This document shows positions 22,681 to 54,068 of a stretch of DNA of 64,000 nucleotides, piece after piece; within the stretch, counting starts at the first letter, position 1, and every line of letters begins with the position of its first letter. The stretch lies in IMG/VR virus record IMGVR_UViG_3300042350_004528, positions 186,001 to 250,000 of that record; one strand, given 5' to 3'. Below the pieces are notes generated by a model. That model ran no database searches. It saw only the letters and a program-made list of their open reading frames with translations, and had not been told where the DNA came from. Position numbers and translations under genes: made by a program. The DNA comes from a virus.

Positions 22681-22687
22681 ATTCACA

Positions 22688-23649: not shown

Positions 23650-23667
23650 ATTGGGTTTTTAGGTTGG

Positions 23668-23700: not shown

Positions 23701-23709
23701 CTTAAAAAA

Positions 23710-23741
23710 TTTGCATATTAAATTTATTTCATTTATCTTTG
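23710..23741 (+). promoter_or_regulatory. Promoter of the 23764-24342 gene
   Basis: -33 TTTGCATA, -7 TATCTTTG. Confidence 0.85.
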
Positions 23742-23763
23742 CATTCATAAAATCAAAAACAAA

Positions 23764-24342: not shown

Positions 24343-24344
24343 AA

Positions 24345-24376
24345 TTTGCACATTAAATTTATTTCACTTATCTTTG
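24345..24376 (+). promoter_or_regulatory. Promoter of the 24399-25016 gene
   Basis: -33 TTTGCACA, -7 TATCTTTG. Confidence 0.85.
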
Positions 24377-24398
24377 TACCAACAAAATCAAAAAACAT

Positions 24399-25016: not shown

Positions 25017-25028
25017 TCCCCTCTTTTC
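25008..25028 (+). terminator. Rho-independent terminator
   Basis: AGAGGGG / CCCCTCT stem then TTTTCC, overlapping the stop codon. Confidence 0.8.
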
Positions 25029-25066
25029 CTGAATTCTGGATCGGATCAAAAAAAAATGTAAAAAAG

Positions 25067-25098
25067 TTTGCGTATTAAATTTATTCCACTTATCTTTG
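25067..25098 (+). promoter_or_regulatory. Promoter of the DUF932 gene
   Basis: -33 TTTGCGTA, -7 TATCTTTG. Confidence 0.85.
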
Positions 25099-25123
25099 TA
25101 TCATAATTAAAAACCAAAATAAA

Positions 25124-25936
25124 ATGTACGAACTCGAAAAAATCAAAGAACTTGCACCTGCGGCTTTCCGTATGCCTGAAGACGGTGCTCAGGACGGTGT
25201 GTCAAAGCACTACCAATTCATGACCACCGCTGAAATCATTGACGGTCTTGGTGGAATGGGTTGGGATGTTCACTCGGCTATGCAACAAAAGTCGAAGAAG
25301 AACCCTGAAACCACAAAGCACATGTTGCGCTTCCGTAATGACAACTACGGTTCACTGGGTGTTAAGGGGAATGTTCCTGAAATCCTGTTAGTGAATTCTC
25401 ACGACCGCACAACCTCATTGAACTTTCATGTGGGTATCTTCCGCATCATCTGTTCGAACGGCTTGGTGGTTGCTGATGAAACATTCAACAAGTTCCGTAT
25501 TCGTCACATGGGTACAACATTCGATGAGGTTAAGGGATTAATCAACAACATCACTGAGAACCTACCAACTGTGTTCAATACAATCAACCGCTTCGAGGGT
25601 GTGATTATGAGTGAGGAGGCACAAACCGAGTTCGCTATGCGAGCATTCGCTATCCGCTTCCCTGAGTACATCAACCCAAAGACAAACGCTTTGGACACCA
25701 AGAAAGTAATGAAGAATGTATCAGTTGATGAAATCCTGAAAGCAGTTCGTCCTGAGGACAATGGCCCTGACTTGTGGAGAGTTTACAACCGAGTTCAGGA
25801 GAAACTCATCAAGGGTGGCTTCCAACATCAAGGCGAGGGGCAGAAGCCTCGTGCTTCACGCCCTATCAGCAACATTCGTATGAATGTCCTGATTAACAAA
25901 GGCCTGTGGAACTTGGCGGAGGAGTTCGCTAACTAA
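25124..25936 (+). CDS. DUF932 family protein (270 aa)
   Basis: Starts MYELEKIKELAPAAFRMPED. The segment EILLVNSHDRTTSLNFHVGI followed by FRIICSNGLVVAD is the core DUF932 signature of phage and plasmid proteins (usually 250-350 aa). Function not known; often found among early replication-region genes. Confidence 0.85.
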   Translation: MYELEKIKELAPAAFRMPEDGAQDGVSKHYQFMTTAEIIDGLGGMGWDVHSAMQQKSKKNPETTKHMLRFRNDNYGSLGVKGNVPEILLVNSHDRTTSLNFHVGIFRIICSNGLVVADETFNKFRIRHMGTTFDEVKGLINNITENLPTVFNTINRFEGVIMSEEAQTEFAMRAFAIRFPEYINPKTNALDTKKVMKNVSVDEILKAVRPEDNGPDLWRVYNRVQEKLIKGGFQHQGEGQKPRASRPISNIRMNVLINKGLWNLAEEFAN

Positions 25937-25955
25937 CTCACAATACACTTGAAAG

Positions 25956-25986
25956 AAAGGGGGAAGAAATTCCCTCTTTTTTTTTG
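25956..25986 (+). terminator. Rho-independent terminator
   Basis: GGGGGAA / TTCCCTC stem and T-run merging with the next promoter. Confidence 0.75.
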
Positions 25987-26014
25987 CACATTAAATTTAA
26001 TTTACTTATCTTTG
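25983..26014 (+). promoter_or_regulatory. Promoter of the 26038-26839 pair
   Basis: -33 TTTGCACA, -7 TATCTTTG. Confidence 0.85.
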
Positions 26015-26037
26015 TTATCGAAATCAAAAACAATAAT

Positions 26038-26607
26038 ATGAAGTTACTTAATTTTGTGATGGTCGCCAAACACCTGACAGGTGACAGCGAAGTTTATTTC
26101 TTTCCTACAAAGGAGGAAGCAAGAACATTCTACAACAACAGAGTTAAACCGCTGTTGGATATTTGTATGAAGAACGAATTGGAGGAAGATGAGGCGTACT
26201 CATTCGGACAAACCAAAGATTGTGTTCGTTTCGATTGTGGTTACGATGAGGAACTTGATGCGATGCTTAACGAGTGTAATCATTACTATCGTGTGGACAG
26301 CGTTGAAGTTCCTGAAAATGTTACACACTATGTGGCTGACTTTTCCGAGTGGGTTGATGAGAGTGTTATCGAGTTCCACACCGAACAACAGGCAAAGGAA
26401 GTTTGGAACGATAAGATTGATGAGGAAATCAGGTTGGCTTCCGAGTATCATGGGATTGAGATTAGCAGACATCACCAAGAAACTTGGGAAGATAAATCAG
26501 GTATGACCTTGTTTCAGGAAACACATTACAGCGATATGTATTCCGATGCTTACTTTGGTCATTCAATGGATATGACTTGGACATTCAGGATTGGACAAAT
26601 AAATTAA
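26038..26607 (+). CDS. Unknown acidic protein (189 aa)
   Basis: Starts MKLLNFVMVAKHLTGDSEVY. N-terminal FFPTKEEARTFYNNRVKPLL suggests an alpha/beta domain; the rest is Glu/Asp-rich with many His. Not recognised. Confidence 0.7.
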   Translation: MKLLNFVMVAKHLTGDSEVYFFPTKEEARTFYNNRVKPLLDICMKNELEEDEAYSFGQTKDCVRFDCGYDEELDAMLNECNHYYRVDSVEVPENVTHYVADFSEWVDESVIEFHTEQQAKEVWNDKIDEEIRLASEYHGIEISRHHQETWEDKSGMTLFQETHYSDMYSDAYFGHSMDMTWTFRIGQIN

Positions 26608-26611
26608 TCTT

Positions 26612-26839
26612 ATGGCGATAAAAATCATTTACTACTCGGAGGTTATAGATAACTGGGGTAGAACAGAAAGTTCAATGAAAGGTGATATCATCTTCGCGGC
26701 CCTGAACAATGTTGAGGACTGGACTGACGATATGATGTTCGAGGGTGATGACGGTCGCAAGTATTCAATAGATGAGCTTGCAGGTAAAGAAGTTTGTGTA
26801 CCAGACATCGGGATATTCACCGTACCAGAAGAAGAATAA
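26612..26839 (+). CDS. Unknown acidic protein (75 aa)
   Basis: Starts MAIKIIYYSEVIDNWGRTES, 4 bp after the preceding stop, ends VPEEE before the 26843 terminator. Confidence 0.7.
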   Translation: MAIKIIYYSEVIDNWGRTESSMKGDIIFAALNNVEDWTDDMMFEGDDGRKYSIDELAGKEVCVPDIGIFTVPEEE

Positions 26840-26842
26840 TTA

Positions 26843-26870
26843 ACGGGGCTTAAAAGCCCCTTTATTTTTT
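26843..26870 (+). terminator. Rho-independent terminator
   Basis: GGGGCT / AGCCCC stem followed by a T-rich run. Confidence 0.85.
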
Positions 26871-26896
26871 TATCTGGGACGTTATATTTATCATGG

Positions 26897-27379
26897 ATGG
26901 TGAAGTCCCAGATTTTAAATGAGAGATCTTTTGATATAACAGACGGTGAACGATATTTAATTGTCGTGATCACCCCAGATAGATCGTACTCAGTTTTCAC
27001 CAGAAAGTACCAGAGCAAACCAGTTGTCTCTGTGGAATTCAAAGAAGCAAAACTTTATAAGGAGCTGAAGACAGCTCAGAATGTTGTGAAGGAAATCTTC
27101 CAGAACAATGAACACTACCAGGAATCTGTAATAAAGATATTCCAGGTGAAGGATCTATTCGAACCCAGATATTTTGTACAGTATATTAAAAAAGCTTACA
27201 TGAATTCTCCTGAGCTTAAGTGTTACATCGACTGGTACGTGATCGGCGAGAACCAGGTTGATACTTATCTGGATTACAGCGAAGCTCAAAAACATCTGGA
27301 CAAATACAAACGCGATCTACTTGAATTCTATTACAGCCAGATCATGAACATCAGGAGCTTCGACTTAAAAAAAATATAA
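26897..27379 (+). CDS. Unknown protein (160 aa)
   Basis: Starts MVKSQILNERSFDITDGERY. Codon use here shifts (AGA/AGG, CTG, GATC-containing codons) relative to the genes on the left, and no canonical promoter precedes it. Lys/Tyr-rich helices in the C-terminal half. Confidence 0.7.
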   Translation: MVKSQILNERSFDITDGERYLIVVITPDRSYSVFTRKYQSKPVVSVEFKEAKLYKELKTAQNVVKEIFQNNEHYQESVIKIFQVKDLFEPRYFVQYIKKAYMNSPELKCYIDWYVIGENQVDTYLDYSEAQKHLDKYKRDLLEFYYSQIMNIRSFDLKKI

Positions 27380-27412
27380 AAAAAAACGGCTCCATTTCTG
27401 GAACCGTCTCTT
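27376..27412. terminator. Terminator between convergent genes
   Basis: ACGGcTCC / GGAaCCGT stem with A-run on the left, serving mainly the minus-strand 27436-27687 gene. Confidence 0.75.
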
Positions 27413-27435
27413 CACCACTAAATCAAAAACAAAAA

Positions 27436-27687
27436 TCAATACTGGTAGTATGTGTATTCAATTGTGTCCCCCACCCTGTAACGGGCATGTTGAGGATCAA
27501 CTGTAACTGGAGCTGTGCTGTCCCAGAATTCATATCGGTAGCGCTTCTTGTAATTCAGTGTTGTTGGATCGTACTGTTCGATCGTGTCAACTTTCTTAAT
27601 CACATGTGGCACCACATGAATTGACTTCGGTGGTCTCTGGACACACCCTGTCACCAGGACAGTGAATACAAATATTAGTTTACGCAC
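27436..27687 (-). CDS. Small lipoprotein (83 aa)
   Basis: With GTG as start it reads (M)RKLIFVFTVLVTGCVQRPPK, an ideal lipoprotein signal with lipobox VTGC; an ATG 15 bp upstream (MYLPKV...) is possible. Overlaps the stop of 27680-27913 by 8 bp with the GTG. The mature part is beta-like and Tyr-rich. Envelope-anchored, function unknown. Confidence 0.7.
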   Translation of the reverse strand: MRKLIFVFTVLVTGCVQRPPKSIHVVPHVIKKVDTIEQYDPTTLNYKKRYRYEFWDSTAPVTVDPQHARYRVGDTIEYTYYQY

Positions 27688-27913
27688 CTTTGGTAAATAC
27701 ATCTGGGTTTTCAAAATCAGTTTCAGTATCCAGAAACATGAATGAATCCTCCAACTCCTCATCGGTGAGTTTAACATCTTCCGACAAAGAATTCAGAAAG
27801 TCCATTGCTTCCCGTTTGCTGTTGAAATACTTGTAGTCTGTGTTGTCCTCATTCATAAGGTACTCCAAACCATTTAACGATATGCCCTCAATGGGTCTTC
27901 CAATTATTATCAT
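27680..27913 (-). CDS. Unknown acidic protein (77 aa)
   Basis: Starts MIIIGRPIEGISLNGLEYLM with later YFNSKREAMDFLNSL, a pattern seen in small phage proteins. First gene of the pair driven by 27918-27949, with 4 nt between -7 box and ATG. Confidence 0.7.
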   Translation of the reverse strand: MIIIGRPIEGISLNGLEYLMNEDNTDYKYFNSKREAMDFLNSLSEDVKLTDEELEDSFMFLDTETDFENPDVFTKGA

Positions 27914-27917
27914 ATGA

Positions 27918-27949
27918 CAAAGGTAATTTAAATTTATTTAATATGCAAG
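27918..27949 (-). promoter_or_regulatory. Promoter of the 27436-27913 pair
   Basis: -33 CTTGCATA, -7 TACCTTTG. Confidence 0.8.
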
Positions 27950-27950
27950 A

Positions 27951-27983
27951 AACTGGGGAAGTTTTTTTCTCCCCCAGTTAATT
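27951..27983 (-). terminator. Rho-independent terminator
   Basis: AACTGGGG / CCCCCAGTT stem; ends the Api92-like gene. Confidence 0.75.
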
Positions 27984-27991
27984 TTATTACA

Positions 27992-28837
27992 TTATTCCCA
28001 AGGTGTATCAAAGTTATCGAATGGGTTTTCTGGGAAGCAAGAGTTCTCATCATTCCATTCTTCTTCCGAAATTACATTTCCGTCCTCACCAACATAAACT
28101 CTTTGTTCAACATTGTAGTTATATACAACGCCATCCAAAACATATTCTGGTTCACCCTCCGCTAACATAAGTTCACCATCCTCGCTGTAAGCACAACCCG
28201 CGAACCAGTTTCCAGTTTCCATAAACACCAGTTTGAAGTTCAAGTTCGGAAACATTTTGATAACTTTTCCCAACCAGTTGATTGGTGGCGACCAGGCGGA
28301 GTTGAAGTTAATTGTAATATAGTTTTCGTTATCTGTATCGAAACCCATTTCCTCTGACGAGCAATCCCACTTTGTTCCCCAGTTCATAACATTCCAGTCG
28401 TACCAGTTGTCAGTCCCATACTCTTCAATAAGAGCCTCTCGCTTCTCTTCTGTACCATTGGCACATTCAATTAGTTCTGGAATTTCAATTGGTATCTTTG
28501 CTTCATTCAATTGGTTGTTGATGAAGTCCCTGTCGGTTTTGTCTGTGGTCTCCAGAAGTTTTTTCTCCAGATCAGCGATCAACTCTTGTTGTTTCTCGAT
28601 ACGATTTTTTGCGTGGTTCACATCCCACTCGTTCACCCATTCACAATCACGAGGTGGTGATATGGTTCTGGAAAGTGGTTCTGGTGTCGGTAAGTAGTTC
28701 GACATTCTCCAGACAAGTTCTGTTTCACCTGTTTTGCTGTAACGCACAGGTTCTTCGGTAATTCCCATTGCAAGGAATTGTTTGAATTCTTTGGTATCAC
28801 CCGATACCTCTAAACGATTTTCGCACCAGTTTGGCAT
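27992..28837 (-). CDS. Api92-like ferredoxin-fold protein (281 aa)
   Basis: Starts MPNWCENRLEVSGDTKEFKQ, the MPNWCxNxLxVxG opening of the Api92/DUF1281 family, and shows the later INFNSAWSPPINWLGKVIKM segment typical of it. The family is common in phages and plasmids and of unknown function. ATG at 28837 chosen over an upstream in-frame one that would lie in the promoter. It contains an inserted charged coiled coil (about residues 75-115). Confidence 0.85.
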   Translation of the reverse strand: MPNWCENRLEVSGDTKEFKQFLAMGITEEPVRYSKTGETELVWRMSNYLPTPEPLSRTISPPRDCEWVNEWDVNHAKNRIEKQQELIADLEKKLLETTDKTDRDFINNQLNEAKIPIEIPELIECANGTEEKREALIEEYGTDNWYDWNVMNWGTKWDCSSEEMGFDTDNENYITINFNSAWSPPINWLGKVIKMFPNLNFKLVFMETGNWFAGCAYSEDGELMLAEGEPEYVLDGVVYNYNVEQRVYVGEDGNVISEEEWNDENSCFPENPFDNFDTPWE

Positions 28838-28862
28838 AGTATATTGTTTTTGATTTCGAGAG

Positions 28863-28894
28863 CAAATATACACCATATATTTTTAACTCGCAAA
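28863..28894 (-). promoter_or_regulatory. Promoter of the Api92-like gene
   Basis: -33 TTTGCGAG, -7 TATATTTG; divergent from 28925. Confidence 0.8.
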
Positions 28895-28924
28895 CTTTAT
28901 CACAAAAAACTTTTTTCATTTTTA

Positions 28925-28956
28925 TTTGCACATTAAATTTATTGCACTTATCTTTG
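28925..28956 (+). promoter_or_regulatory. Promoter of the GP88 gene
   Basis: -33 TTTGCACA, -7 TATCTTTG. Confidence 0.85.
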
Positions 28957-28979
28957 TGTCGAAATCAAAAATAAAAATC

Positions 28980-29723
28980 ATGTTTAATCTAGGGTACACG
29001 TACAAGAAGCCTACCACACTGTTTGGTACGCAGAATGCAAAGACAAAGAAAGGTGAAAAACTGGGGTATACAACCTATATCCTGTATATGTCACCAGAAA
29101 AACAAAACACGCTTGGCAAGAACATTTGCCCGAAAGCCACAGCAGGCTGTTCGAAGTCATGTCTCTTCACAGCGGGTCGTGGCAAGTTTAGCAATGTCAT
29201 GAAAGGTCGTCTGAATAAGACTGAATACTTTCTTCGTGACAAGGTGAACTTCATGGACGATGTTGTTAAGGAAATTAAAAAGGGTATTAAAAAACATGGT
29301 GCGGGTGCAATGTGCGTTCGTCTCAATGGTACCTCTGATATTCCTTACGAGAACATTCCAGTGGGTGGTTTTAAAAATGTCATGGAAATGTTTCCTGATG
29401 TGCAATTTTACGATTACACAAAGATCTATTCAAGGTTGACAAAGCAATTGCCTGCGAACTATCACCTTACCTTTTCCAGGGCGGAGACAGAGGACAACCA
29501 ACGCGAAGCGGACAAAGCACTCGCACTTGGTTTCAATGTCGCTGTTGTTTTCGCTGTTAAGGACGAGACAGAACTTCCCGCTGAATACAACAATGCAAAG
29601 GTTATCAATGGTGACGAGCACGATCTTACTTTCTTACATGGCAATGGTGTTGTCGTGGGGTTGAAAGCAAAGGGTGAAGCAAAGAAAGATGATACAGGTT
29701 TCGTAGTAAGGGGTTGTAACTAA
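28980..29723 (+). CDS. GP88 family phage protein (247 aa)
   Basis: Starts MFNLGYTYKKPTTLFGTQNA. Carries the family's cysteine motif CPKATAGCSKSCLFTAGRG and the later RLNGTSDIPYE and DYTKIYSR segments, all typical of 'gene product 88' proteins of phages. The conserved cysteines suggest a metal or Fe-S site; activity unproven. Start set by leader AAATCAAAAATAAAAATC. Confidence 0.9.
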   Translation: MFNLGYTYKKPTTLFGTQNAKTKKGEKLGYTTYILYMSPEKQNTLGKNICPKATAGCSKSCLFTAGRGKFSNVMKGRLNKTEYFLRDKVNFMDDVVKEIKKGIKKHGAGAMCVRLNGTSDIPYENIPVGGFKNVMEMFPDVQFYDYTKIYSRLTKQLPANYHLTFSRAETEDNQREADKALALGFNVAVVFAVKDETELPAEYNNAKVINGDEHDLTFLHGNGVVVGLKAKGEAKKDDTGFVVRGCN

Positions 29724-29739
29724 CCCCTTATTTTTTTTT
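29709..29739 (+). terminator. Rho-independent terminator
   Basis: AAGGGGTT / AACCCCTT stem then T9, overlapping the GP88 stop. Confidence 0.85.
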
Positions 29740-29748
29740 GCATTCAGA

Positions 29749-29780
29749 CTTGCAAGTTAAATTAAATTCATATACCTTTG
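29749..29780 (+). promoter_or_regulatory. Promoter of the 29785-31324 operon
   Basis: -33 CTTGCAAG, -7 TACCTTTG; ATG follows after 4 nt. Confidence 0.8.
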
Positions 29781-29784
29781 TCAT

Positions 29785-30102
29785 ATGAAAGCAAAACAAA
29801 ACAATTATCCAAAGTTTATCATCCGTTGGAACGGTCGATTCCATAAGGGTCTGATAACCGAAGACTTCGTCTTCTACTGTAACTACCAGGAAGGAGATGA
29901 TAACGGCAATGTTGAGATGTATCGCAGGGTTGAATCTAACCCGCATGACAGGGACAACAGCGGGCTAGAATTGGTATCGAACAATTACTTTGCTAGCGTT
30001 GGTCTCTTCGAAGCGCTCGAGGCGGGCGTCTGGGAATACATCTCACCAACCATGAAACTGAATTATAAACTAGCAAAAGAAGCGGGACAATTCGATGAGT
30101 AA
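29785..30102 (+). CDS. Unknown protein (105 aa)
   Basis: Starts MKAKQNNYPKFIIRWNGRFH; probable leaderless mRNA. First gene of a four-gene operon linked by overlaps. Confidence 0.7.
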   Translation: MKAKQNNYPKFIIRWNGRFHKGLITEDFVFYCNYQEGDDNGNVEMYRRVESNPHDRDNSGLELVSNNYFASVGLFEALEAGVWEYISPTMKLNYKLAKEAGQFDE

Positions 30103-36106: not shown

Positions 36107-36343
36107 TTATTTCGTTAATTTTATAAAGATTCCAGCTGGCCCATGTGATACATGATAACCACAACATCTATTGTCCAAAGTCATACCATACGATTTAAGA
36201 CGAAATATTATCGCGGACTCAGCCTCACCATAAAAAATAGCGTGAACCGTGCTATCAGCGTAATCAATTGAAACGCCAATTATTTTATTTATTGCCCAAG
36301 ATGGGTTTATGTCCAACTCTTCAACTGGTATGTGTACTAACAT
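36107..36343 (-). CDS. Unknown protein (78 aa)
   Basis: Starts MLVHIPVEELDINPSWAINK; small alpha/beta protein with a CC pair. Overlaps the ABC-transporter-like gene by 7 bp. Confidence 0.65.
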   Translation of the reverse strand: MLVHIPVEELDINPSWAINKIIGVSIDYADSTVHAIFYGEAESAIIFRLKSYGMTLDNRCCGYHVSHGPAGIFIKLTK

Positions 36344-37167
36344 TGTATTCTTTTTAATACGTCTAATATTCTTGAGTATGCTTCAACACCAACTGGTATC
36401 GACATTAATGAGACCAAAAAGTTACTGATGTATGAGTACATTGCGATGATATCCCCTTGAGATAACTTGTCAGATGTCTTGATGAAGACAATCAAAGCTG
36501 TCACAAGAAATGTATATTTAACCGCATTCACCCAGAACCAATTCTTTCCTTGTAATGTTGAACCGTATATCCATAACTTTCTTCTTCTGTTAAAGAAACT
36601 TGTTATCTCATCCTTATTGGAACGATTGATAACATCAACTTTTTTCTCATATTGATTGTTCCCAACAACAGTTGCTTGTTTTATCTTCTTGTAAAACTTA
36701 AACACAATAAACATAATTGGGAACACACAACCCAACACAATGAAACCTGTTATCAAACTTCCCCTCATCACAAAAACCAAACTACCCAGAACCGTGACAA
36801 TAACGGAAATGTAATAATGAACGTAACTCTCGAGAACATCCACAATCTGGTGAGCCATATCTGTCCTGGCTACCTTAGATGAGTTATCAACATCGGTCTT
36901 ATGTATAAACTCCATCACGATGTTGTTATATATCTTTGTGTATACCTTTGTGTCATAAACCATTCTCTTGTATATGAACATGGTTGATCCAGCGTAAACC
37001 AGAACCAAACCAATCAACCAATTCCAGTTACCAACCAACAAACCATCAATCGTCTTTCCAAGAAAATAGGGTTGCAATAAAAGCAAACCCTCGGCAATTA
37101 ACATGTAAGTGTATATTAATAATAACTCATACTTATATTGCTTAAATATATTAATCAGATGTTTCAT
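36337..37167 (-). CDS. ABC-exporter transmembrane domain without an ATPase domain (276 aa)
   Basis: Starts MKHLINIFKQYKYELLLIYT. Six hydrophobic segments in the spacing of an ABC exporter half-transporter; LLLQPYFLGKTIDGLL near the start and the end ...SIPVGVEAYSRILDVLKRIQ match the border where the nucleotide-binding domain normally begins. The protein stops there and neighbouring genes show no Walker A. It may use a host ATPase, or act as a membrane inhibitor (inference). Confidence 0.75.
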   Translation of the reverse strand: MKHLINIFKQYKYELLLIYTYMLIAEGLLLLQPYFLGKTIDGLLVGNWNWLIGLVLVYAGSTMFIYKRMVYDTKVYTKIYNNIVMEFIHKTDVDNSSKVARTDMAHQIVDVLESYVHYYISVIVTVLGSLVFVMRGSLITGFIVLGCVFPIMFIVFKFYKKIKQATVVGNNQYEKKVDVINRSNKDEITSFFNRRRKLWIYGSTLQGKNWFWVNAVKYTFLVTALIVFIKTSDKLSQGDIIAMYSYISNFLVSLMSIPVGVEAYSRILDVLKRIQC

Positions 37168-40071: not shown

Positions 40072-40149
40072 TTATTTCTTATTTTTACGAGCATTCGGTA
40101 GCACCAGGAAAAAATACCATAGTATTACCAGTATCGTTAATGTATGCAT
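40072..40149 (-). CDS. Membrane microprotein (25 aa)
   Basis: MHTLTILVILWYFFLVLPNA plus RKNKK: one span and a basic tail. Its ATG overlaps the stop of 40149-40754 as TAATG. Confidence 0.6.
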   Translation of the reverse strand: MHTLTILVILWYFFLVLPNARKNKK

Positions 40150-40754
40150 TAATTAATTTTTTCTATGTAACTTAAAACCTCTTCTTTAGTATTAACCCAA
40201 TCCAATAGTTCGTAGTGTTCGCCTTTGGCGTTTATAAACTCGGCGTTGATTATTTGCAAACTATCTTCAACATTGTGAATGTTTCCGATGTATCGCTCAC
40301 GTGCTTCATCGTCATATTCAAAAAGACAACCATCGGAATCTTCCTCAACTCTGATCGTGCTTCCCCATTTAACAATGTTCCAGAAAGCGCCACCCTCGGA
40401 TATTGATGTTGCAAAATCATCCACATCGAATGATTCAGCATCTTCTTTGATTGGCATGTCCCAAGTTTCTTTCAACATTGGTAGCAACTCGTTCCACCAT
40501 TTAACATCACCATCAAAATTATCCTCAACGGTAACAACAACCTCGGCAATACCATGCTCTTCTTCATCATCCCAGTATAATTCATCACCCTCGGTGGATA
40601 TCCATTTCTTGGTGAAATCCTCTGAGAATCTGATTGAATCGAGTAGTTCTGTTAAAAATCTAACCCACGCTGACTCATCCGATTCTAACTCCTCAAACAA
40701 ATCGTAATCAGTAATTTTGTAAGTTAATGTGTAGGATACTTTAAACTTTTTCAT
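40149..40754 (-). CDS. Very acidic unknown protein (201 aa)
   Basis: Starts MKKFKVSYTLTYKITDYDLF. Many Asp/Glu and Trp; N-terminal beta strands. 4 bp downstream of the tyrosinase gene. Confidence 0.7.
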   Translation of the reverse strand: MKKFKVSYTLTYKITDYDLFEELESDESAWVRFLTELLDSIRFSEDFTKKWISTEGDELYWDDEEEHGIAEVVVTVEDNFDGDVKWWNELLPMLKETWDMPIKEDAESFDVDDFATSISEGGAFWNIVKWGSTIRVEEDSDGCLFEYDDEARERYIGNIHNVEDSLQIINAEFINAKGEHYELLDWVNTKEEVLSYIEKIN

Positions 40755-40758: not shown

Positions 40759-42210
40759 TTAAATTTTAATCTTTATGTTTTCGATAATTAAATCACCAGT
40801 GTGAATACCGTTATGTTTATAAATTTCAACATGGTATCTGTTAGATGAGTTGACCTCAAATTCAAATTGCATTGTTGGTCTACCGTCAGCGTTGAGTGTT
40901 CTACAACAACCCTTTTCACAAGACTCACCAGGCATTTTATGATCGGCTCCGAAGAAAGACATATAACCCGCGAAGCTCTCAACCATATTCGGGTGTGCTG
41001 TTGTTAATTTATTTCGATTAACGTAAACCTCATAGACACCTTTAGGTATCTTCGTGAATGAAACGGTTAATACTAATTTAACTCTATTTGGCGCACCTAG
41101 CTGGCCACTTGTTGGCGTAACCTGTGTGACAGCATCTGTGATTTGACCATTAATTGGTATGCTGAAATTATTGCTATGTAAAACATTGTTGTATGCTCTA
41201 GCCATCATCGGTTGATCAGCTTTTTCATATACCTCAACATCATCATAATCATAATCAAGTTTGTATATTATCTTTATCACATCTTCCATTGTATAGGTAA
41301 CTTTCTTACCATTCTCATCGAAGAAAACATAAGACCAGTCAGCTGATTTTAACATCTCCAATGTAACTTTCTCCCCATTCGGAGAATTAGTCCATTGCTG
41401 CCATAGTCTATCAATGTTTGAGTGATGTGTCCAGAAAACTGGATCAAACCCAGCTGTCGGAACCCAACCCATCAACCCTGTCTCACTAATTTTACCAGTG
41501 ATTGGGTTGTTGAACAACTTACCAGTTTGTACATTACCAGCGCCGATGTAATCGTGCATCGCACCATGTGGGGCATTGTTAATCTGCGAGTTAAACATTT
41601 CGTATGAGGTGTAACTCATTAATTTATCTGTCTCCAAAGCTCTTTGGATTTCACCTGCAATAGGATAACCATAGTTCAAGCTATCAAATCTACAACGTTC
41701 ATATAGGGATGATTTCGGATCTCTGAATTTTTCTTGTAAAAATTTGTCGTAGTCAAAATTATTTGTGTAGCCCCAATAAGGTAATGCGAAATCTTTATAT
41801 CCAGACAATTTTCTAACTATCTTTTCTAAATGGTGAATGTATAATCTATGCCAAACCAAGAAATGAATTTTTTCTTTACCACTTGGTGTATGTGTACAAT
41901 TATCCCAAGCTTCTTTTAAATCGGCTGGGGTCTTATAGCTTGGGCACAGTGGGTTATATAAGATTGTGTCGGGAACCCAATGAATTGCACCTTGATAATA
42001 CCAACTCAATGGGTTATCACAAGGCATATTACGCATAATTTTAAAGGCTTTGTCCATGGCTTCAACGTCCATTTGTGCCTCTGGTGTGTGAATTTCTTTT
42101 CGGAGATATCGTTTTCCAACAACATCTCCAACGCTTTCGGTTCTGTCTTTACATGATATTAGCCATAATAGGCCAAACATCAAAATGAATAGTATTAATA
42201 TTTTTTTCAT
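40759..42210 (-). CDS. Lipoprotein tyrosinase (483 aa)
   Basis: A type-3 copper oxidase of the tyrosinase/hemocyanin superfamily, which oxidises phenols or catechols with O2. Signal MKKILILFILMFGLLWLISC with lipobox (Cys20), so likely anchored outside the inner membrane or on the outer membrane. CuA: His77, CTH (Cys105-His107, the thioether-type Cys-x-His of fungal enzymes) and HFLVWHR (His121), then ALPYW. CuB: PHGAMH (His215, His219) and DPVFWTHHSNIDRLW (His262/263). A C-terminal beta domain follows (from about 340). All copper ligands look intact. Sits among phage genes and is not flanked by transposon sequence. Confidence 0.9.
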   Translation of the reverse strand: MKKILILFILMFGLLWLISCKDRTESVGDVVGKRYLRKEIHTPEAQMDVEAMDKAFKIMRNMPCDNPLSWYYQGAIHWVPDTILYNPLCPSYKTPADLKEAWDNCTHTPSGKEKIHFLVWHRLYIHHLEKIVRKLSGYKDFALPYWGYTNNFDYDKFLQEKFRDPKSSLYERCRFDSLNYGYPIAGEIQRALETDKLMSYTSYEMFNSQINNAPHGAMHDYIGAGNVQTGKLFNNPITGKISETGLMGWVPTAGFDPVFWTHHSNIDRLWQQWTNSPNGEKVTLEMLKSADWSYVFFDENGKKVTYTMEDVIKIIYKLDYDYDDVEVYEKADQPMMARAYNNVLHSNNFSIPINGQITDAVTQVTPTSGQLGAPNRVKLVLTVSFTKIPKGVYEVYVNRNKLTTAHPNMVESFAGYMSFFGADHKMPGESCEKGCCRTLNADGRPTMQFEFEVNSSNRYHVEIYKHNGIHTGDLIIENIKIKI

Positions 42211-42220: not shown

Positions 42221-42397
42221 TTATTTTACAACATTAAGTAAAAAAAGTGTGATGTAAACCATAGATACAACTGTCATAAATTTAATTGTCATGGCGATGA
42301 TGGGTTTAGTACCGTTAACTTTAGCAACAAGCATGAAGGATCCTGTTGCATAGAACCAAATGATGGTTATGATCTTAGCAATGTCTAATATGTTCAT
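42221..42397 (-). CDS. Two-span membrane protein (58 aa)
   Basis: Starts MNILDIAKIITIIWFYATGS; two helices. Lies between the tyrosinase and the alarmone hydrolase and is probably co-transcribed with both. Confidence 0.65.
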   Translation of the reverse strand: MNILDIAKIITIIWFYATGSFMLVAKVNGTKPIIAMTIKFMTVVSMVYITLFLLNVVK

Positions 42398-42401: not shown

Positions 42402-42965
42402 TTAATTTTTAAATAAATCACTCAGGTATTGAAACATTTCAAAGTAAGGTTCGGTGGCATACCAAGTAAACCCCAACTTAGTCATGAATTCCTCATTTTC
42501 TTTTTTATACATCTCAAACATACGACTACCAGTCATCTTAGAGTATTGTACATTAGCGATACGATCACATAATTTAACAAATACAGCGCCTTTGGTATTA
42601 CGAATACCCTCATAGTATTTGTCATTGGCACGTTCCTTACGGTTCTTACCCTTTTCATTGGTTACAGCATAAATAATCTCAGCCGCTTCCTGACCCAAAA
42701 TATCTTTAACATCGTTATATGACACACGACAATCTTCGATCAAATCGTGGCCCCAACAAGCAAGCATACATGCGTGTTTAGTCGAAACCTGTGTGGTTGG
42801 ATTAACAACCACATCACCAGTAAAGTATTCTTTATCGTCTAAAAGATGGTTGTACTTCTCACCGACATGGGCCACCATTCTCAAGTGGAACTCATACGGT
42901 AAGTATGTGTCGTACATGTGGTTTGTTTCATTGTGCTTCTCAATGCACCATTTTTTCTTATCCAT
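42402..42965 (-). CDS. MESH1/SpoT-like HD hydrolase (187 aa)
   Basis: Starts MDKKKWCIEKHNETNHMYDT. HDLIED (His73-Asp74...Glu77-Asp78), IIYAVTNEKG and VKLCDRIANVQ are the metal and alarmone-binding motifs of small (p)ppGpp pyrophosphohydrolases (about 180 aa, no synthetase domain). Phage-encoded small alarmone hydrolases have been reported to neutralise toxic alarmone synthetases; that is the likely role here (inference). Promoter at 42983. Not a DatZ-type enzyme by motif. Confidence 0.85.
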   Translation of the reverse strand: MDKKKWCIEKHNETNHMYDTYLPYEFHLRMVAHVGEKYNHLLDDKEYFTGDVVVNPTTQVSTKHACMLACWGHDLIEDCRVSYNDVKDILGQEAAEIIYAVTNEKGKNRKERANDKYYEGIRNTKGAVFVKLCDRIANVQYSKMTGSRMFEMYKKENEEFMTKLGFTWYATEPYFEMFQYLSDLFKN

Positions 42966-42982: not shown

Positions 42983-43014
42983 CAAAGGTAAGAAAGAAAA
43001 ATTTAATAACCAAA
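42983..43014 (-). promoter_or_regulatory. Promoter of the HD hydrolase / tyrosinase run
   Basis: -33 TTTGGTTA, -7 TACCTTTG. Confidence 0.7.
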
Positions 43015-44371: not shown

Positions 44372-44588
44372 CTTCTTTTTTAATATCCTCTCGAGTTAAT
44401 TCTTTTTCAGCTTGGTGCATGAAGATAATCTCTTTTGTTTGTTCATCAACTGTGCAAGCGGCAATTGGTTTATCAACTCGGTAATGATATTCTTCTCCTA
44501 GCATACCAACTTCTCCGTTGACAACTTCAAAGGCATCAAACTCCTCTGGTAGGGTGTTGAGCCACGTTTTTAATTCTCCTAAATTCAT
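44358..44588 (-). CDS. Conserved phage protein (76 aa)
   Basis: Starts MNLGELKTWLNTLPEEFDAF; the LKxWLxxLPEEFDxFxVVxG signature is a small family of phage hypotheticals, often near the preceding one. ATGA overlap with the PurA-like gene. Confidence 0.75.
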   Translation of the reverse strand: MNLGELKTWLNTLPEEFDAFEVVNGEVGMLGEEYHYRVDKPIAACTVDEQTKEIIFMHQAEKELTREDIKKEDGKD

Positions 44589-45592
44589 ATATCGTAAGGT
44601 GTTGTACTGAATGTTATCTTCTCGATACTCAAACAGTTTGTGTTTATTATTTTTTCGATAAACATAATAAAATCAGAAACAATATCAAATGATTTTATTT
44701 GTTTGTTCAGGTATAGGTTGTAAACCCCAATTTCTTGAAGAACATCTGATTTATTGATTATTAAATCAGTCACACCGTTGATGTTAATTGCTTTGATCAT
44801 ATCGTCCAAGTCCAACCAATCAACTTGCCTCGGTCTACCAGTTGTTGCACCAAACTCATTACCAACTTCTCTTATCTTCACAAACAATGGGTCTGCACCT
44901 TCAAAGTTTTTGGCACCAACATATGTGCGATAAGCTTTTGCAACGCCGTACACTCTGTCAATTTTTTGTGCTGGTATTCCATTAAGGATGGCCCCACCAA
45001 TTGTGCAATGTGATGATGTAACATATGGGTAATCACCCCAATCAATATCCAACTCAAAACCCTGAGCCCCTTCGCAAAGTATACTACAACCGTCTTGCCC
45101 ATTAAATAATCCGTATGTATCAACAACCATGTCGGCTAACATAGGAACATCAACAGCTCTAAGACCTTTTCGATAATACTTATCTCGGTAAGCTGGGCCA
45201 TTCCCAGTTTTAGTCGTACCGATTTTACTATCCAAACTATCTTCGTGTAGATGTTGCTCGGTGATGATGTGAACACGTTTATCAATCAATAAGTTCTCAC
45301 GAACTTTAAATCCAGCTAATTCGAGTTCATCAATTTCTTGAATAAGTTTGTCTGGGTTGACCACACAACCAAGTCCAATAATTGATTTGATTCCATACAA
45401 TACACCAACTGGTATGAAATGTGTTACATATTTTTCACCATTGTGATATATCGTGTGACCAGCATTACCACCACCATTGTAGCGCATAACATAATCATAC
45501 TCATCTGGCTTCTTAGCCAGAGCGTGGGCAACCTTGCCCTTTCCAGTGTCACCCGCTTGCAGGTCAACAATTACATCAGCTTTGCGTATCAT
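44585..45592 (-). CDS. Short adenylosuccinate synthetase, PurA or PurZ0-like (335 aa)
   Basis: Joins aspartate to IMP (PurA) or to dGMP (PurZ) using nucleotide triphosphate. Motifs: QAGDTGKGK (Asp15 retained), NAGHT (His46), TTKTGNGPAYRDK, GATTGRPRQVDW aspartate loop, NKSD. At 335 aa it is as short as archaeal PurA and phage enzymes, and about 90 residues shorter than bacterial PurA. Canonical PurZ lacks the active-site Asp, so this is either a PurA or a PurZ0-type enzyme. ATG at 45592 (ATGA overlap) preferred. Confidence 0.85.
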   Translation of the reverse strand: MIRKADVIVDLQAGDTGKGKVAHALAKKPDEYDYVMRYNGGGNAGHTIYHNGEKYVTHFIPVGVLYGIKSIIGLGCVVNPDKLIQEIDELELAGFKVRENLLIDKRVHIITEQHLHEDSLDSKIGTTKTGNGPAYRDKYYRKGLRAVDVPMLADMVVDTYGLFNGQDGCSILCEGAQGFELDIDWGDYPYVTSSHCTIGGAILNGIPAQKIDRVYGVAKAYRTYVGAKNFEGADPLFVKIREVGNEFGATTGRPRQVDWLDLDDMIKAININGVTDLIINKSDVLQEIGVYNLYLNKQIKSFDIVSDFIMFIEKIINTNCLSIEKITFSTTPYDI

Positions 45593-46099: not shown

Positions 46100-47962
46100 T
46101 TATTTTACCTCGGTTACAGTACCCTGTTCAGATTCTTTTTTCTCTTGGATTTGCTTTAACAATTCCATTCCAAGTAAGCCATTGATTGGGCTACTATCAC
46201 CACTACCTGTGATAAGAATCTCAGGGATGATTTTGATACCATTTGTACCAATCATTTCGGTAACTTTAAGTTTACCAAAGTTTTCAACACCCATAGCTTT
46301 AACTTGCTTTTCGTAAGCCTCAGCAGTTGATTTACCAATCGCGGAAATCTTAGATGCTTCAGCATCACCAGTCAATTTAATCTGCGTAGCATCAGCTTCA
46401 GCGTTCAATTTCTTAGCTTCAGCTTGAGCGGCAGCTTTTAATTTCAAGGCTTGTGCTTCACCCTCAGATTTCTTAACAGCGGCCTCAGCTTCACGTTGAG
46501 AAATCTCAACCGATTGTTGTGCTGACACCATTTGTCCTTGCATATCGGCAAGTGCTTTAGCCGATTCAAGCGTCTTACGTTTATCTTGAGCTTTGCGTTG
46601 AGTGTCAAATGTTACCTCTTCTTCTTGTGCAATCTTACGGTCAGTAAGAGTTTTCATCAGAGAGTCTGGTGGTGTGATGTCACCAATAAGCGTATCAACC
46701 GCATGCACGTTGTATTCTTCAAGAACCGTGCTGATCTTATCTTTAGCAGCATTCTGTCTTTGTTGACGAGTTGATAAGAACGCAATCACATCAGAATCTT
46801 GTGCCGAGTTACGGAAATAGTTACCGATGGTTGGTTCAAGAACTTGTGACACAAGGTTCTGCATTGAGCCGAAACGAGCAATTACTTTAGGCGCTTCGGT
46901 TGATGGGATGTGGATAATCTGTGAAACATCCAAATTGAATGGGAAACCGTCTTGTGAACGTACTGTGATGGTACTCAAGTTCTTATCAAGATTGTGTGAT
47001 TCATTACGAGCATTTGCCCAGTTAAGAACCAAGTTTGTTGTTGGTACTATCTCAATCTTCTGTGTATAAGGATTGATTGCGTATTTACCTGGATCCAATG
47101 GGGTTGCCCACACACCTTTCTGACCTTTTTTAACGATGTTACCGTGTTTAAAATCACTTCCAGTGGTGTCTTCACCATCTTCACCAACATAAGAGATAAC
47201 AACACCAACATGACCGATAGGAATGGATGTCATTTCTTTCTTCTCAACTTCGATTGCCCATGGGTTCAATGAATAAGAACCAGCTTGAATAACTTGGATT
47301 TGTAAACCCCTTTGTCCACCATTAGCCAAAAACTTATCAAAGTCTTGGAAATTATTGTGACCGCTAACCACAGAACCAGCGATTGAACCAATCTCAAGTG
47401 GTGTACCATCAAGTGCTGTAACAACGCCAACCATACCATCTTCAATGTATGTGATGTCAGCGAGGAATATCTCGAATAAATGGGTATTAACACGATACAC
47501 ACCGTTGTTTAAATAACCAACTTGTTTACCACGTTGTCCACCTGTTGATAAAAACGCTCTAGCATCTTGGTAATCATCACAATCAACGTGTCGAGCCAAG
47601 ATAGCACCCTTTGGTAACTGTGCGCCATCTTTAGCTGATAACAAGCCGATCTTACCTTTAGGTATTGTTGTTAAAGGGGCTTGTTCGATTTCGAATTGCC
47701 ATATCCAGTAAGCCCAATATAAACCTGGGGCTAATGTGTCGGCCTGAAAGCCTGGTTCATTGTTTAAGGCGATAATCTTACCATCGGGTAATTGTTTATT
47801 GGGGCCAAAAAGTACAAATTTTTTGGTCACCAAACCAATTTTGTCTTCAGGTATGATAACCATACCAAAGAACACTCGTAGTACGAACTTGTAGAATACT
47901 ACCATGAGGATCGGGATTAAAACCCATGCGTAACCCAATACGCTAGTTAATTGTTCTGTCAT
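46100..47962 (-). CDS. SPFH/band-7 (flotillin-like) protein with repeated modules (620 aa)
   Basis: Starts MTEQLTSVLGYAWVLIPILM: N-terminal membrane helix (about 10-35). Residues 80-310 hold three copies of a roughly 70-residue unit, each with GGQRG (141, 215) or GQKG (280) then G-Y-x-N-P/T. Then an SPFH domain (about 310-430) and an Ala/Glu/Lys-rich coiled coil (440-560). SPFH proteins form ring or cage scaffolds on membranes. The repeats recall vault-like modules. Located next to NadV and Prs. A phage flotillin-like protein is uncommon; role unknown. Confidence 0.85.
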   Translation of the reverse strand: MTEQLTSVLGYAWVLIPILMVVFYKFVLRVFFGMVIIPEDKIGLVTKKFVLFGPNKQLPDGKIIALNNEPGFQADTLAPGLYWAYWIWQFEIEQAPLTTIPKGKIGLLSAKDGAQLPKGAILARHVDCDDYQDARAFLSTGGQRGKQVGYLNNGVYRVNTHLFEIFLADITYIEDGMVGVVTALDGTPLEIGSIAGSVVSGHNNFQDFDKFLANGGQRGLQIQVIQAGSYSLNPWAIEVEKKEMTSIPIGHVGVVISYVGEDGEDTTGSDFKHGNIVKKGQKGVWATPLDPGKYAINPYTQKIEIVPTTNLVLNWANARNESHNLDKNLSTITVRSQDGFPFNLDVSQIIHIPSTEAPKVIARFGSMQNLVSQVLEPTIGNYFRNSAQDSDVIAFLSTRQQRQNAAKDKISTVLEEYNVHAVDTLIGDITPPDSLMKTLTDRKIAQEEEVTFDTQRKAQDKRKTLESAKALADMQGQMVSAQQSVEISQREAEAAVKKSEGEAQALKLKAAAQAEAKKLNAEADATQIKLTGDAEASKISAIGKSTAEAYEKQVKAMGVENFGKLKVTEMIGTNGIKIIPEILITGSGDSSPINGLLGMELLKQIQEKKESEQGTVTEVK

Positions 47963-48287: not shown

Positions 48288-49817
48288 TTATAATTTATTT
48301 AAACGTTCACGAATTTCAGTTAATGTTGTTTGGTTGTGGAACTTACCATCTTCATAAATGGTTTGTAAGATTCCAGTTCCCTCTTGCTCCCAAGTACATT
48401 GAGTTAATACCTCATGGTCTTCAGTTACACAGATCAAACCTTTCAAAGATTTCTTGGTACCATCATCAGTTACTGGATCTTTGTAGATGTTGTAACCAAC
48501 CTTTCCTTTTGGAATTAAAGCACTTCCCAAAAGTCCATCGGCTGAAGGTATAGTATCAAACTCCTCAACTTCAAACCAAGCACCTTTGGCTGCGAAACCT
48601 AAAGTGTCACGGGTATTCATTTGGTAAGTAAATGAACCAACACCCAATACAATGTTTGTTGCCGCAAATCCTTTTGCTTCCAATCTCTTGTAGATTTCAA
48701 TTTGACGGTCTAATGTGATTGAATCTCCGTAGATTGCTCCGATGTGTGGGTCAAGAACCTTGTAACCTTGTTCATTGATTGTTCCACCAAAGATGTCCCA
48801 AAGTAATTCTATTACCCCGACTTCAGCAGGTGTTTTATACTCACCAGGCGCATCGGATAATTGTTCTTCTCTACCACAAATAATATCAACTGGATCACCA
48901 GAGTCAGGACGAATTACTAACTTACCGTCACGAGCCATGATAGCTTCTTTGTTTGCTGGTAAGTATTCAGTAATCAACTTCCACAAATCAAATGTGTCAG
49001 ATACAATTGATAGGATTCCATTCGGAAAATCTACCAACCAATCGGCAATCATTTGTTGTTCACCAACAGTAAAGATTTTTGTTGTTGATACAGAGTGTTC
49101 AGATGCGTTAACCGAGTTAATGCACACTTCGTCTTTTGGTTCATTATAGAAATAACGAGCCCCTGGAATACAGATGATTGTATCTGAACCACGGAACGAT
49201 GTTGCATGTCCCATTCCACTAGTCAACATATCCCATGGTGATAAACCACGTGCTGAAAAGTCATGACACATAAAAGGAATTAACCAAGCTGTTGATGGGT
49301 CGGTTTTCATAACCCACTCAACAACATTACGTTTGTATTGCAATGCTATTGTTGCTGATGTGGATGGTTTCCAAGCCAACGAACTGATAATTGTTTCCAA
49401 ATACAATGTCAACCACGCAAACCCATCGACAGTATTGATGAAAGTCATGTGTGGAACATTTGGGTTTGTTTCAATACCTTCAGGTAGTGCTTTAACACGA
49501 ATAGGTAAGTAACCTAATCTGTGTAGTGCAACGAAGTGTGATGCATCGTAATCCATTCCAAGATACAATGACATATCTTTTCCAAAGTTAACCGCAACTT
49601 CCTCGGGTAAACTGAAAAAGTTCTCTTGAAATTCATCATGTAACCATTTAACAACCAATTGTTGTCCGAATGAAACGATTTTTGACACGCCTTTAGGTGC
49701 ATACTTAACACTACGTGGAATCCATGTGCCGTACAAACGGGTGGTTCCAGGAGCTAACATTTTCTTGTGACCGATCTTATATCCGTCAGTGTAAAATAAA
49801 CTTGTTGGTTTGAACAT
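48288..49817 (-). CDS. nadV: Nicotinamide phosphoribosyltransferase (509 aa)
   Basis: Converts nicotinamide plus PRPP to NMN, the first step of NAD salvage. Starts MFKPTSLFYTDGYKIGHKKM. NASEHS (catalytic His region), VIRPDSGDP (PRPP phosphate loop), YGDSITLDRQ and GVGSFTYQ match the NAMPT/NadV family; length is normal (about 480-500). Its co-substrate PRPP is supplied by the prs gene directly upstream in the same run. NadV is known in several large phages and is linked to NAD repletion against host defences. Confidence 0.95.
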   Translation of the reverse strand: MFKPTSLFYTDGYKIGHKKMLAPGTTRLYGTWIPRSVKYAPKGVSKIVSFGQQLVVKWLHDEFQENFFSLPEEVAVNFGKDMSLYLGMDYDASHFVALHRLGYLPIRVKALPEGIETNPNVPHMTFINTVDGFAWLTLYLETIISSLAWKPSTSATIALQYKRNVVEWVMKTDPSTAWLIPFMCHDFSARGLSPWDMLTSGMGHATSFRGSDTIICIPGARYFYNEPKDEVCINSVNASEHSVSTTKIFTVGEQQMIADWLVDFPNGILSIVSDTFDLWKLITEYLPANKEAIMARDGKLVIRPDSGDPVDIICGREEQLSDAPGEYKTPAEVGVIELLWDIFGGTINEQGYKVLDPHIGAIYGDSITLDRQIEIYKRLEAKGFAATNIVLGVGSFTYQMNTRDTLGFAAKGAWFEVEEFDTIPSADGLLGSALIPKGKVGYNIYKDPVTDDGTKKSLKGLICVTEDHEVLTQCTWEQEGTGILQTIYEDGKFHNQTTLTEIRERLNKL

Positions 49818-49836
49818 AATAATTATTATTTTGGGG

Positions 49837-50808
49837 TTAAAATACGTTTAATTGTTTAACTAATGAGTGAATTGTTTTGTGCCTTGAAAGCGTGTCAACG
49901 ATAGTTCCGTCTTGAACATCCTTCACACTATTTGTTGTGTAGATACCATCAAAATATTCACTTAGGAAATCAAACCCAGCGCTGAAGATGCCATGAGTAA
50001 CTATCAAATAGTTTTTACCGTGGTGTTTTGGGTGAACAGTACTTGATATTTTTCTGGCATCATTGACAGCTTTAGCGATTTCAATGAATGTTCTACCACC
50101 ATCGCAGATGTCATCAATAATGAAAATATCTTTGTCGGCATCGTTTACTGAAATTGGTACGTTAGTGTAATCAATCTTACCAGTTTCAATATTACGATGT
50201 TTTGATGCGATGATAACTTCATGTCTATATTTGAGTTGTTCAGCACAATGAAACACTTTTTTCAAAGCACCAGCATCGGGTGATACTAAACGTACACCAT
50301 CGAAATTCATGGAGTCCCAAATTTCAAATCCTTTTGATAAAAAGTAATCTTTAAATGCGAAATAAAGTAAAACGGTATTGTCCCGTTTCTCAAAGTTATT
50401 GATGCATGCCTCAAGAACATCTGAGTGTGGGTCAAGGACTGTTACCTTTTCGTAACCCTGTGAGTTAATGATTGGTGCGATTACGTTCTTAACATAATTG
50501 ATACCACCTTCCGTAAACTTACGGTCGCTTCTAGCACCCATACAATAAGGAATGTAAAGACGAATACGATTAACACCAACCTCTTTTAACGCTTGTGTTG
50601 CACAGATAATAATTTCCAAATCCTGGAATGTATTTAAACGAGATTTGATTGTTATACCTTGCGAATTATCTTTAAGTGAACAAAAGGTATTGTATCCATT
50701 TTCAACCAATCTCAATGATTGTTGTCCATCGGGAAAACGACTAATCTCATATTTGAATGATAGCTTATCGTTATCGTTATGGTTAACTAAATTTAAAAGT
50801 TCCGCCAT
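49837..50808 (-). CDS. prs: Ribose-phosphate pyrophosphokinase (323 aa)
   Basis: Makes PRPP from ribose-5-phosphate and ATP. Starts MAELLNLVNHNDNDKLSFKY. RFPDGQ, YIPYCMGARSDRKFTEG, VLDPHSD and the PRPP loop FIIDDICDGGRTF are clear. Slightly shorter start than bacterial Prs and less similar in the flexible region, typical of phage Prs. Promoter at 50834. Directly upstream of nadV. Confidence 0.93.
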   Translation of the reverse strand: MAELLNLVNHNDNDKLSFKYEISRFPDGQQSLRLVENGYNTFCSLKDNSQGITIKSRLNTFQDLEIIICATQALKEVGVNRIRLYIPYCMGARSDRKFTEGGINYVKNVIAPIINSQGYEKVTVLDPHSDVLEACINNFEKRDNTVLLYFAFKDYFLSKGFEIWDSMNFDGVRLVSPDAGALKKVFHCAEQLKYRHEVIIASKHRNIETGKIDYTNVPISVNDADKDIFIIDDICDGGRTFIEIAKAVNDARKISSTVHPKHHGKNYLIVTHGIFSAGFDFLSEYFDGIYTTNSVKDVQDGTIVDTLSRHKTIHSLVKQLNVF

Positions 50809-53115: not shown

Positions 53116-53637
53116 TTAAAATTTAATTCTAAGACCCATTTTTTGCATAGCCAATAATGCCTCGGCGTTACCCATAGCATCATCAACGGGATTGTGAGTA
53201 TGTTTTGTTTTTCTATACAAACGTTTCCACTCCTGGTTCTTACTAGCATCCTTAACCAAACCACAATACAAATCACCGATACGTCTGCCAGAAAACCCGA
53301 ATGGGTTTCTACCGCAGTACTTATGCATGTACCAGTTAATCCACTGCCAATCAAAGGCTAAGTTATCGCTGATAAAGGTTGGTTTACCTTCGGAATTTTT
53401 AACTAACCATTTTTCGAACTCGCTCATAACCTCATATGGTTCCCCAAACTGTTCATGCTCAGACCTTGAAAACCCACTGACAGCTAACGCATCTGGTTTG
53501 TATTGATCAGTTAATGGTCTGATCTTACCATAAAACGTTTTTGATGTGTCGGACACTTTAACAACACCGAAACATACAATTGAATGTGTACCAACTAATT
53601 CACCATCAGCCTCAACATCCACTACAAAATAACTCAT
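53116..53637 (-). CDS. DEDD-type 3'-5' exonuclease (173 aa)
   Basis: Starts MSYFVVDVEADGELVGTHSI: VDVEAD holds the first two acidic residues, DNLAFDWQW the third, HNPVDDA the His and last Asp. RNase T/DnaQ-like fold. It may trim RNA or DNA; overlaps smpB by ATGA, hinting at RNA work. Confidence 0.85.
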   Translation of the reverse strand: MSYFVVDVEADGELVGTHSIVCFGVVKVSDTSKTFYGKIRPLTDQYKPDALAVSGFSRSEHEQFGEPYEVMSEFEKWLVKNSEGKPTFISDNLAFDWQWINWYMHKYCGRNPFGFSGRRIGDLYCGLVKDASKNQEWKRLYRKTKHTHNPVDDAMGNAEALLAMQKMGLRIKF

Positions 53638-54068
53638 ATCTTTACTAATTTTTTAATTTCTCTGTCAATATCGCGCTTTTTAATTGTCTCGCGTTTATCG
53701 TAATTCTTTTTACCCCTAGCAATAGCGATTCTACATTTTATCTTACCAGAACCATTCAAGTAAAACCAAAACGGAACGATTGTTAAACCTTTTGTCAAAC
53801 TGTTCTGAATCTTTCGGATTTCTGTTCTGTGTAAAAGTAATTTTTTATCACGATTCTCATCATGACCAAAAAATTCGCTATTTGTGGTTATTTTAAAATT
53901 TTTGATGAACATTTCGTCATCCTTGATATAGCAAAACGCATCAACTATGCTAATTTTACCATCCTTAATTGCTTTAACTTCAGAGCCAAAAAGAATAATA
54001 CCAGCCTCATACTCTTGAAGGTATTCATAATCAAATTTTGCTTTTCTATTTGTAACTAAAGTTTTCAC
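53634..54068 (-). CDS. smpB: SsrA-binding protein SmpB (144 aa)
   Basis: Binds tmRNA and delivers it to stalled ribosomes. Starts MKTLVTNRKAKFDYEYLQEY; AGIILFGSEVKAIKDGKISI, LLLHRTEIRKI, GLTIVPFWFYLNG and the basic C-terminal tail KKNYDKRE are conserved. Length usual (about 150). Phage-encoded SmpB is rare and no tmRNA is visible here, so it may use host tmRNA. Promoter at 54073. Confidence 0.93.
   Translation of the reverse strand: MKTLVTNRKAKFDYEYLQEYEAGIILFGSEVKAIKDGKISIVDAFCYIKDDEMFIKNFKITTNSEFFGHDENRDKKLLLHRTEIRKIQNSLTKGLTIVPFWFYLNGSGKIKCRIAIARGKKNYDKRETIKKRDIDREIKKLVKI

Follow-up and report, generated by a model that had tools for sequence, protein, structure and literature searches.

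A gene encoding a type-3 copper oxidase of the tyrosinase family is present in the genome of a giant phage, recovered as a 298,833-bp virus record in IMG/VR. The stretch of this record analysed here (bases 186001-250000; 64,000 nucleotides, hereafter the window) contains the complete gene (Table 1). Type-3 copper oxidases (tyrosinases, catechol oxidases, and hemocyanins) are known from cellular life, and the selected, mobile phage lineage described below brings them to the viruses of bacteria. We consider it probable that the protein is a functional, exported oxidase, that it was acquired once from Bacteroidota and then transferred between phages, and that it oxidizes diphenols in the cell envelope. 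The existence of this lineage suggests that phenol oxidation by infected cells may occur.

Table 1 Features of the oxidase gene and its surroundings, in window coordinates
Feature	Position	Strand	Basis
Tyrosinase-family type-3 copper oxidase, ATG ORF, 483 aa (stop included in coordinates)	40759..42210	-	PF00264 (E 1.5e-26); AlphaFold2; Foldseek
Lipoprotein signal, residues 1-20; lipobox LISC, Cys20	42151..42210	-	Read from sequence
CuA site: H77, C105-T-H107 (likely thioether), H121	41848..41982	-	Invariant in 27 sequences
CuB site: H215, H219, H263; HisB1+1 Gly216, gate Val250	41422..41568	-	Alignment; residue roles from PMC8049008
C-terminal beta-sandwich, putative shielding domain, residues about 343-483	40762..41184	-	AlphaFold2 strands; Foldseek alignments
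C431-x3-C435-C436 motif, specific to the phage clade	40903..40920	-	Alignment; opposite His/Met-rich loop of bacterial relatives
201-aa ORF directly downstream of oxidase, probably co-transcribed	40149..40754	-	ORF call
Membrane ORF, 58 aa (ATG), co-directional, 10 bp upstream of oxidase gene	42221..42397	-	No family
HD phosphohydrolase resembling small alarmone hydrolases/MESH1	42402..42965	-	PHROG 990 (E 2.2e-25); PDB 3nqw (E 1.4e-6), 6yvc (E 1.9e-5)
Bacteroidota-type promoter, 17 nt upstream of HD gene	42983..43013	-	TTG 43013-43011, 20-nt spacer, TACCTTTG 42990-42983

Family assignment and active site

The protein matches the Pfam tyrosinase profile PF00264 with 94.5 bits (curated cut-off, 22.6) and, more weakly, the middle domain of polyphenol oxidases (PPO1_DWL; 22.7 bits, cut-off 20.8). 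A PF00264 scan of the whole record recovered it in two pieces (57.4 and 45.3 bits). The six histidine ligands and the thioether cysteine C105 are invariant among 27 aligned relatives, and the original prediction of a complete tyrosinase with intact copper ligands therefore withstands close alignment. Profile, ligands, and core fold agree in placing the protein among the type-3 copper proteins of the tyrosinase family. Molluscan hemocyanins obtain the top phmmer scores because of their repeats. The Cys-Thr-His motif, which had been likened to fungal enzymes, is present and is not confined to fungi, since Cys-X-His occurs in all Bacteroidota relatives found and in the tyrosinase of Verrucomicrobium spinosum (PMC10526336).

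The residues that tune activity point to a diphenol oxidase. A glutamate at the waterkeeper position (HisB1-4) together with Asn or Asp at HisB1+1 favours monophenolase activity, and classing such enzymes from sequence alone stays unsafe (PMC8049008). The window oxidase has neither: its waterkeeper position is Asn, and Asn or Asp is found there across the phage clade and in the nearest bacterial relatives, with Glu appearing in more distant ones. HisB1+1 is Gly, and HisB2+1 is mostly Asp, including in the window oxidase, so that some monophenolase activity is conceivable (PMC8049008). The gate residue, assigned by spacing, is a small Val250 located 13 residues before HisB3. This pattern is compatible with a catechol oxidase, which oxidizes o-diphenols without monophenolase activity. 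Because the waterkeeper Glu and HisB1+1 Asn are both absent, such an enzyme is likelier than a true tyrosinase, and we predict, with moderate confidence, that the activity is mainly that of a catechol oxidase. The name tyrosinase thus stands for the family but not for a monophenolase-type active site, and catechol oxidase is the safer term. In certain plant enzymes, Asn or Asp in place of the waterkeeper Glu weakens or eliminates activity (PMC8049008), so the phage enzyme may be weak or directed at unusual substrates.

Fold, C-terminal domain, and comparison with known enzymes

An AlphaFold2 model of the oxidase (27 sequences) has a mean pLDDT of 85.5 and a pTM of 0.87. Foldseek matched it to polyphenol oxidase (PPO) and tyrosinase structures with probability 1.00, and the top solved folds are latent two-domain enzymes, namely Hahella tyrosinase (8b74), tomato PPO (6hqj), latent aurone synthase (4z14), and the apple enzyme (6els). 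The alignments to latent PPOs span both domains (E 1e-17 to 1e-19), and by homology to these enzymes the C-terminal domain would shield the active site.

A loop in this domain is rich in metal ligands in nearly all relatives, with cysteines in the phages and His/Met in the bacteria. Of 16 full-length phage proteins included in the tree, 14 have the C-x3-C-C motif, whereas bacterial relatives carry Met/His-rich stretches at the same place (for example, HHSGMEDMKMEGM and HHAKEHGHHDGHQHGD), as does one phage copy (L041). In the model the loop has low confidence (residues 432-434 are below 50). It is probably a loop for loading metal (copper), the ligands of which were switched to cysteine in the phages, and the two versions at one position offer a direct test of caddie-free copper loading by C-terminal domains. 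Across seven phage records, no HMA copper chaperone was found, which counts against a functional oxidase.

The closest bacterial proteins, from Mucilaginibacter (L013 and L015) and Flavobacterium cerinum (L014), have about 47% identity to the window oxidase over the full length and share its lipobox, C-X-H motif, waterkeeper Asn/Asp, HisB1+1 Gly, and C-terminal domain. They differ in being encoded on bacterial chromosomes, in their His/Met-rich loop, and in forming a separate sister clade. The V. spinosum tyrosinase (PDB 8bbq) is likewise exported, with a type-3 copper core, a C-X-H thioether, and a C-terminal jelly-roll pro-domain, but has only about 20% identity, a TAT signal without a lipobox, waterkeeper Glu254 four residues before HisB1, and Asn at both activity controllers (PMC10526336). 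The plant PPOs and Hahella tyrosinase share the latent two-domain architecture along the whole chain; however, they have 18-20% identity and are chloroplast or secreted proteins rather than lipoproteins, and the plant enzymes have a Phe gate and another thioether topology. Streptomyces MelC2 and the o-aminophenol oxidases BagH-FevF, which depend on a separate caddie protein, have the type-3 copper core alone in common with the window oxidase (scores of 36 bits with a cut-off of 450, and 23 bits with a cut-off of 630).

Export

The N-terminus (MKKILILFILMFGLLWLISC) consists of a hydrophobic signal that ends, by inspection, in a lipobox at residues 17-20, as expected for a bacterial lipoprotein. 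By eye, a lipobox is also present in most phage relatives (L034 and L036-L042) and in the bacterial proteins L013-L017 and L019. The N-terminus of L005-L011 and L033 is hydrophobic but shows no clear lipobox, and in several phage copies an uncleaved or signal-anchor-like N-terminus takes the place of the lipoprotein signal. An envelope-located lipoprotein, as first proposed, thus fits the window protein with its Cys20, but the anchor is not universal among phage copies; the predicted extracytoplasmic or envelope location is common to the group, and lipid anchoring is not. The incomplete conservation of the anchor among copies counts against an anchored oxidase.

Phage origin, spread, and selection

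The record carries genes for a Gp23-type capsid protein (E 1.2e-74) and a terminase (E 9.6e-11), both distantly T4-like, and a sub-threshold match to a sheath protein. With these hallmarks in the same record, the oxidase gene is phage-encoded and does sit within phage genes, as had been claimed. The nearest reference terminases are those of Flavobacterium phages (30% identity). The promoter motif well established for the phylum Bacteroidota (TTG, 17-22 nt, TAnnTTTG) is enriched in the record (167 observed versus 66 +/- 8 expected from shuffles), and many copies are located about 20 nt before an ORF, which suggests a host within the Bacteroidota.

Three scans of IMG/VR identified 23 contigs with an oxidase relative, including contigs of 476, 281, 253, 154, and 134 kb. 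Two other contigs are 100% identical to the region over 11.7 and 18.9 kb, and one of them spans both flanks, which makes a chimera unlikely; we rejected an assembly in which a host contig contributes this segment. Besides these and the window's own contig, relatives are present on about 20 contigs. At least six gene contexts are represented, and these vary between lineages and are kept within them (window and L033, L005 and L034, L011 and L036, L010 and L012). No partner gene within 10 kb is common to all phage contexts, as would be expected of a self-sufficient cargo gene.

In the phylogenetic tree, the phage oxidases form one clade (support 99/98; 90/85 in a tree with fewer bacterial sequences and two long outgroup rows), and the Mucilaginibacter and F. 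cerinum lipoproteins are its sister. One member retained in the tree, L037, is of doubtful phage status, with a thioesterase neighbour, no hallmark gene found, and no Cys loop. The window oxidase has 64% identity to that of L034 and 57% to that of L011, whereas the major capsid and terminase proteins of the window phage have only 23-26% identity to those of these two phages. Over all phages compared in this way, oxidases with 57-64% identity go with capsid and terminase proteins at 22-28%, which implies that the gene has been transferred between giant phages that are only deeply related. For close pairs of phage oxidases, dN/dS is 0.015-0.05, indicating strong purifying selection. The group is rare in Bacteroidota (7 of 398 sampled genomes in the order of F. 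cerinum and 5 of 395 in the class of Pseudarcicella; E < 1e-40). No homologue closer than those known was found in these two sets or in samples of 297 Bacteroidota genomes and 60 Mucilaginibacter relatives.

The phage records derive from metagenomes and may not be complete. An ordinary gene of the host, placed among phage genes by misassembly or misclassification of a contig, would account for homologues that are otherwise bacterial and for the lack of this gene in reference phages. However, the identical locus with its flanks in other contigs, the capsid and terminase genes on the same record, the neighbours shared by divergent phage relatives, and the separation of the phage clade refute this reading as far as metagenomic data go, and we regard its probability as close to negligible.

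No match to the oxidase was found by tblastn among 50,697 reference phage records (INPHARED), PHROGs has no family for it, and the viral structures in BFVD gave weak matches only (TM-score < 0.2 to the query, none named tyrosinase). The open papers searched describe no phage tyrosinase; subscription papers and unpublished annotation tables lie outside this search, and priority is unproven. A study of the Vogt-Koyanagi-Harada virome deals with epitopes of the human tyrosinase and not with enzymes of phages (PMC12147045). The statement that no phage tyrosinase has been described agrees with these sources, and of the phage databases searched for tyrosinase domains, IMG/VR alone yielded relatives. 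The family is known, and its occurrence in phages appears to be new relative to the collections and open papers searched.

Gene neighbourhood

The HD gene, membrane ORF, oxidase gene, and 201-aa ORF follow one another in this order with gaps of 4-10 bases. Given these gaps and one Bacteroidota-type promoter before the HD gene, a single transcript is likely, in line with the proposal that the oxidase adjoins, and is transcribed with, a membrane protein and an alarmone hydrolase. The first of these neighbours is a short membrane ORF and the second a MESH1-like HD protein; the 201-aa ORF has no Pfam or PHROG match.

Proposed role and alternatives

In the scenario that we consider probable, giant phages of Bacteroidota would have obtained the oxidase in a single event, from a lipoprotein of the Bacteroidota, and would later have exchanged the gene among themselves. 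The infected cell would produce it along with the alarmone-hydrolase-like protein and export it to the envelope, where it would be lipid-anchored and loaded with host (periplasmic) copper, aided by the C-x3-C-C loop. The C-terminal domain would keep the enzyme latent until displaced or cleaved, after which it would turn o-diphenols into o-quinones, either on the cell surface or within the periplasm. As the likeliest gain for the phage, which is speculative and which we hold tentatively, the infected cell would be protected or remodelled as phenolics are removed or polymerised and envelope proteins cross-linked. The roles first proposed for the enzyme, namely modification of the surface, production of quinones against competitors, and a change in host susceptibility, are likewise speculative. 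If active, the oxidase would tie giant phages to phenolic and humic carbon chemistry and would offer a testable mechanism of envelope modification. A bolder version, in which a dedicated envelope phenol/catechol oxidase with a cysteine copper-loading loop is common to Bacteroidota giant phages and chemically rewrites the surface of the infected cell with quinones, is rather doubtful; if true, this might serve, for example, to keep out rival phages or to protect the cell, and would constitute a phage weapon or armour of an undescribed kind.

The oxidase may instead be an ordinary auxiliary metabolic gene that clears toxic catechols or humic and algal polyphenols from around the infected cell, or uses up O2, a role that its homologues in bacteria may also have. 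This is a reasonable possibility, though short of an even chance: its closest relatives come from free-living Bacteroidota, where they are stand-alone lipoproteins, and the active site favours diphenols, but no other gene for phenol metabolism was noted near the oxidase. Superinfection exclusion, in which an anchored oxidase modifies tyrosines or catechols of outer-membrane proteins or cross-links the surface and so blocks adsorption or injection by competitors, would suit the lipid anchor and the behaviour of a cargo gene that has no fixed partners and has spread among unrelated giant phages. Tyrosine modification, however, requires monophenolase activity, for which the characteristic residues are lacking, and we find this role unlikely. 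It is less likely still that the fold serves as a non-catalytic, hemocyanin-like binder of copper or oxygen used for copper sequestration. The hemocyanin scores (due to repeats), the metal-ligand-rich loop, and the altered waterkeeper would fit such a protein, but the small Val at the gate leaves the site open, and over the whole chain the fold matches latent oxidases rather than hemocyanins.

Other genes of the window and related phages

An ABC-transporter membrane region without an ATPase domain (36337-37167; PF13748, E 9.9e-21) belongs to the same gene run as the oxidase. A putative NAD salvage pair (48288-50808) comprises nicotinamide phosphoribosyltransferase and ribose-phosphate pyrophosphokinase; downstream are a Band_7/SPFH protein (46100-47962) and a PurZ (2-aminoadenylosuccinate-synthetase-like) protein (44585-45592), the latter of which may hint at modified purines. 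The ribosome-rescue protein SmpB is also encoded (53634-54068; Pfam, 162.8 bits), with a relative close to the oxidase gene of L042; a search of the window with ARAGORN gave no tmRNA. Arrays of small genes (18500-30000 on the plus strand and 300-18500 on the minus strand), almost every one with a Bacteroidota-type promoter about 20 nt upstream, look like an early-gene region. In L036, L038, L042, and L035, many proteins start with a motif resembling MK(Y/H)(L/I)K(L/T)(F/Y)E (for example, MKYLKLFEDF and MKHIKTYRLFES), and this recurrent N-terminus of giant phages may be a targeting or processing signal.
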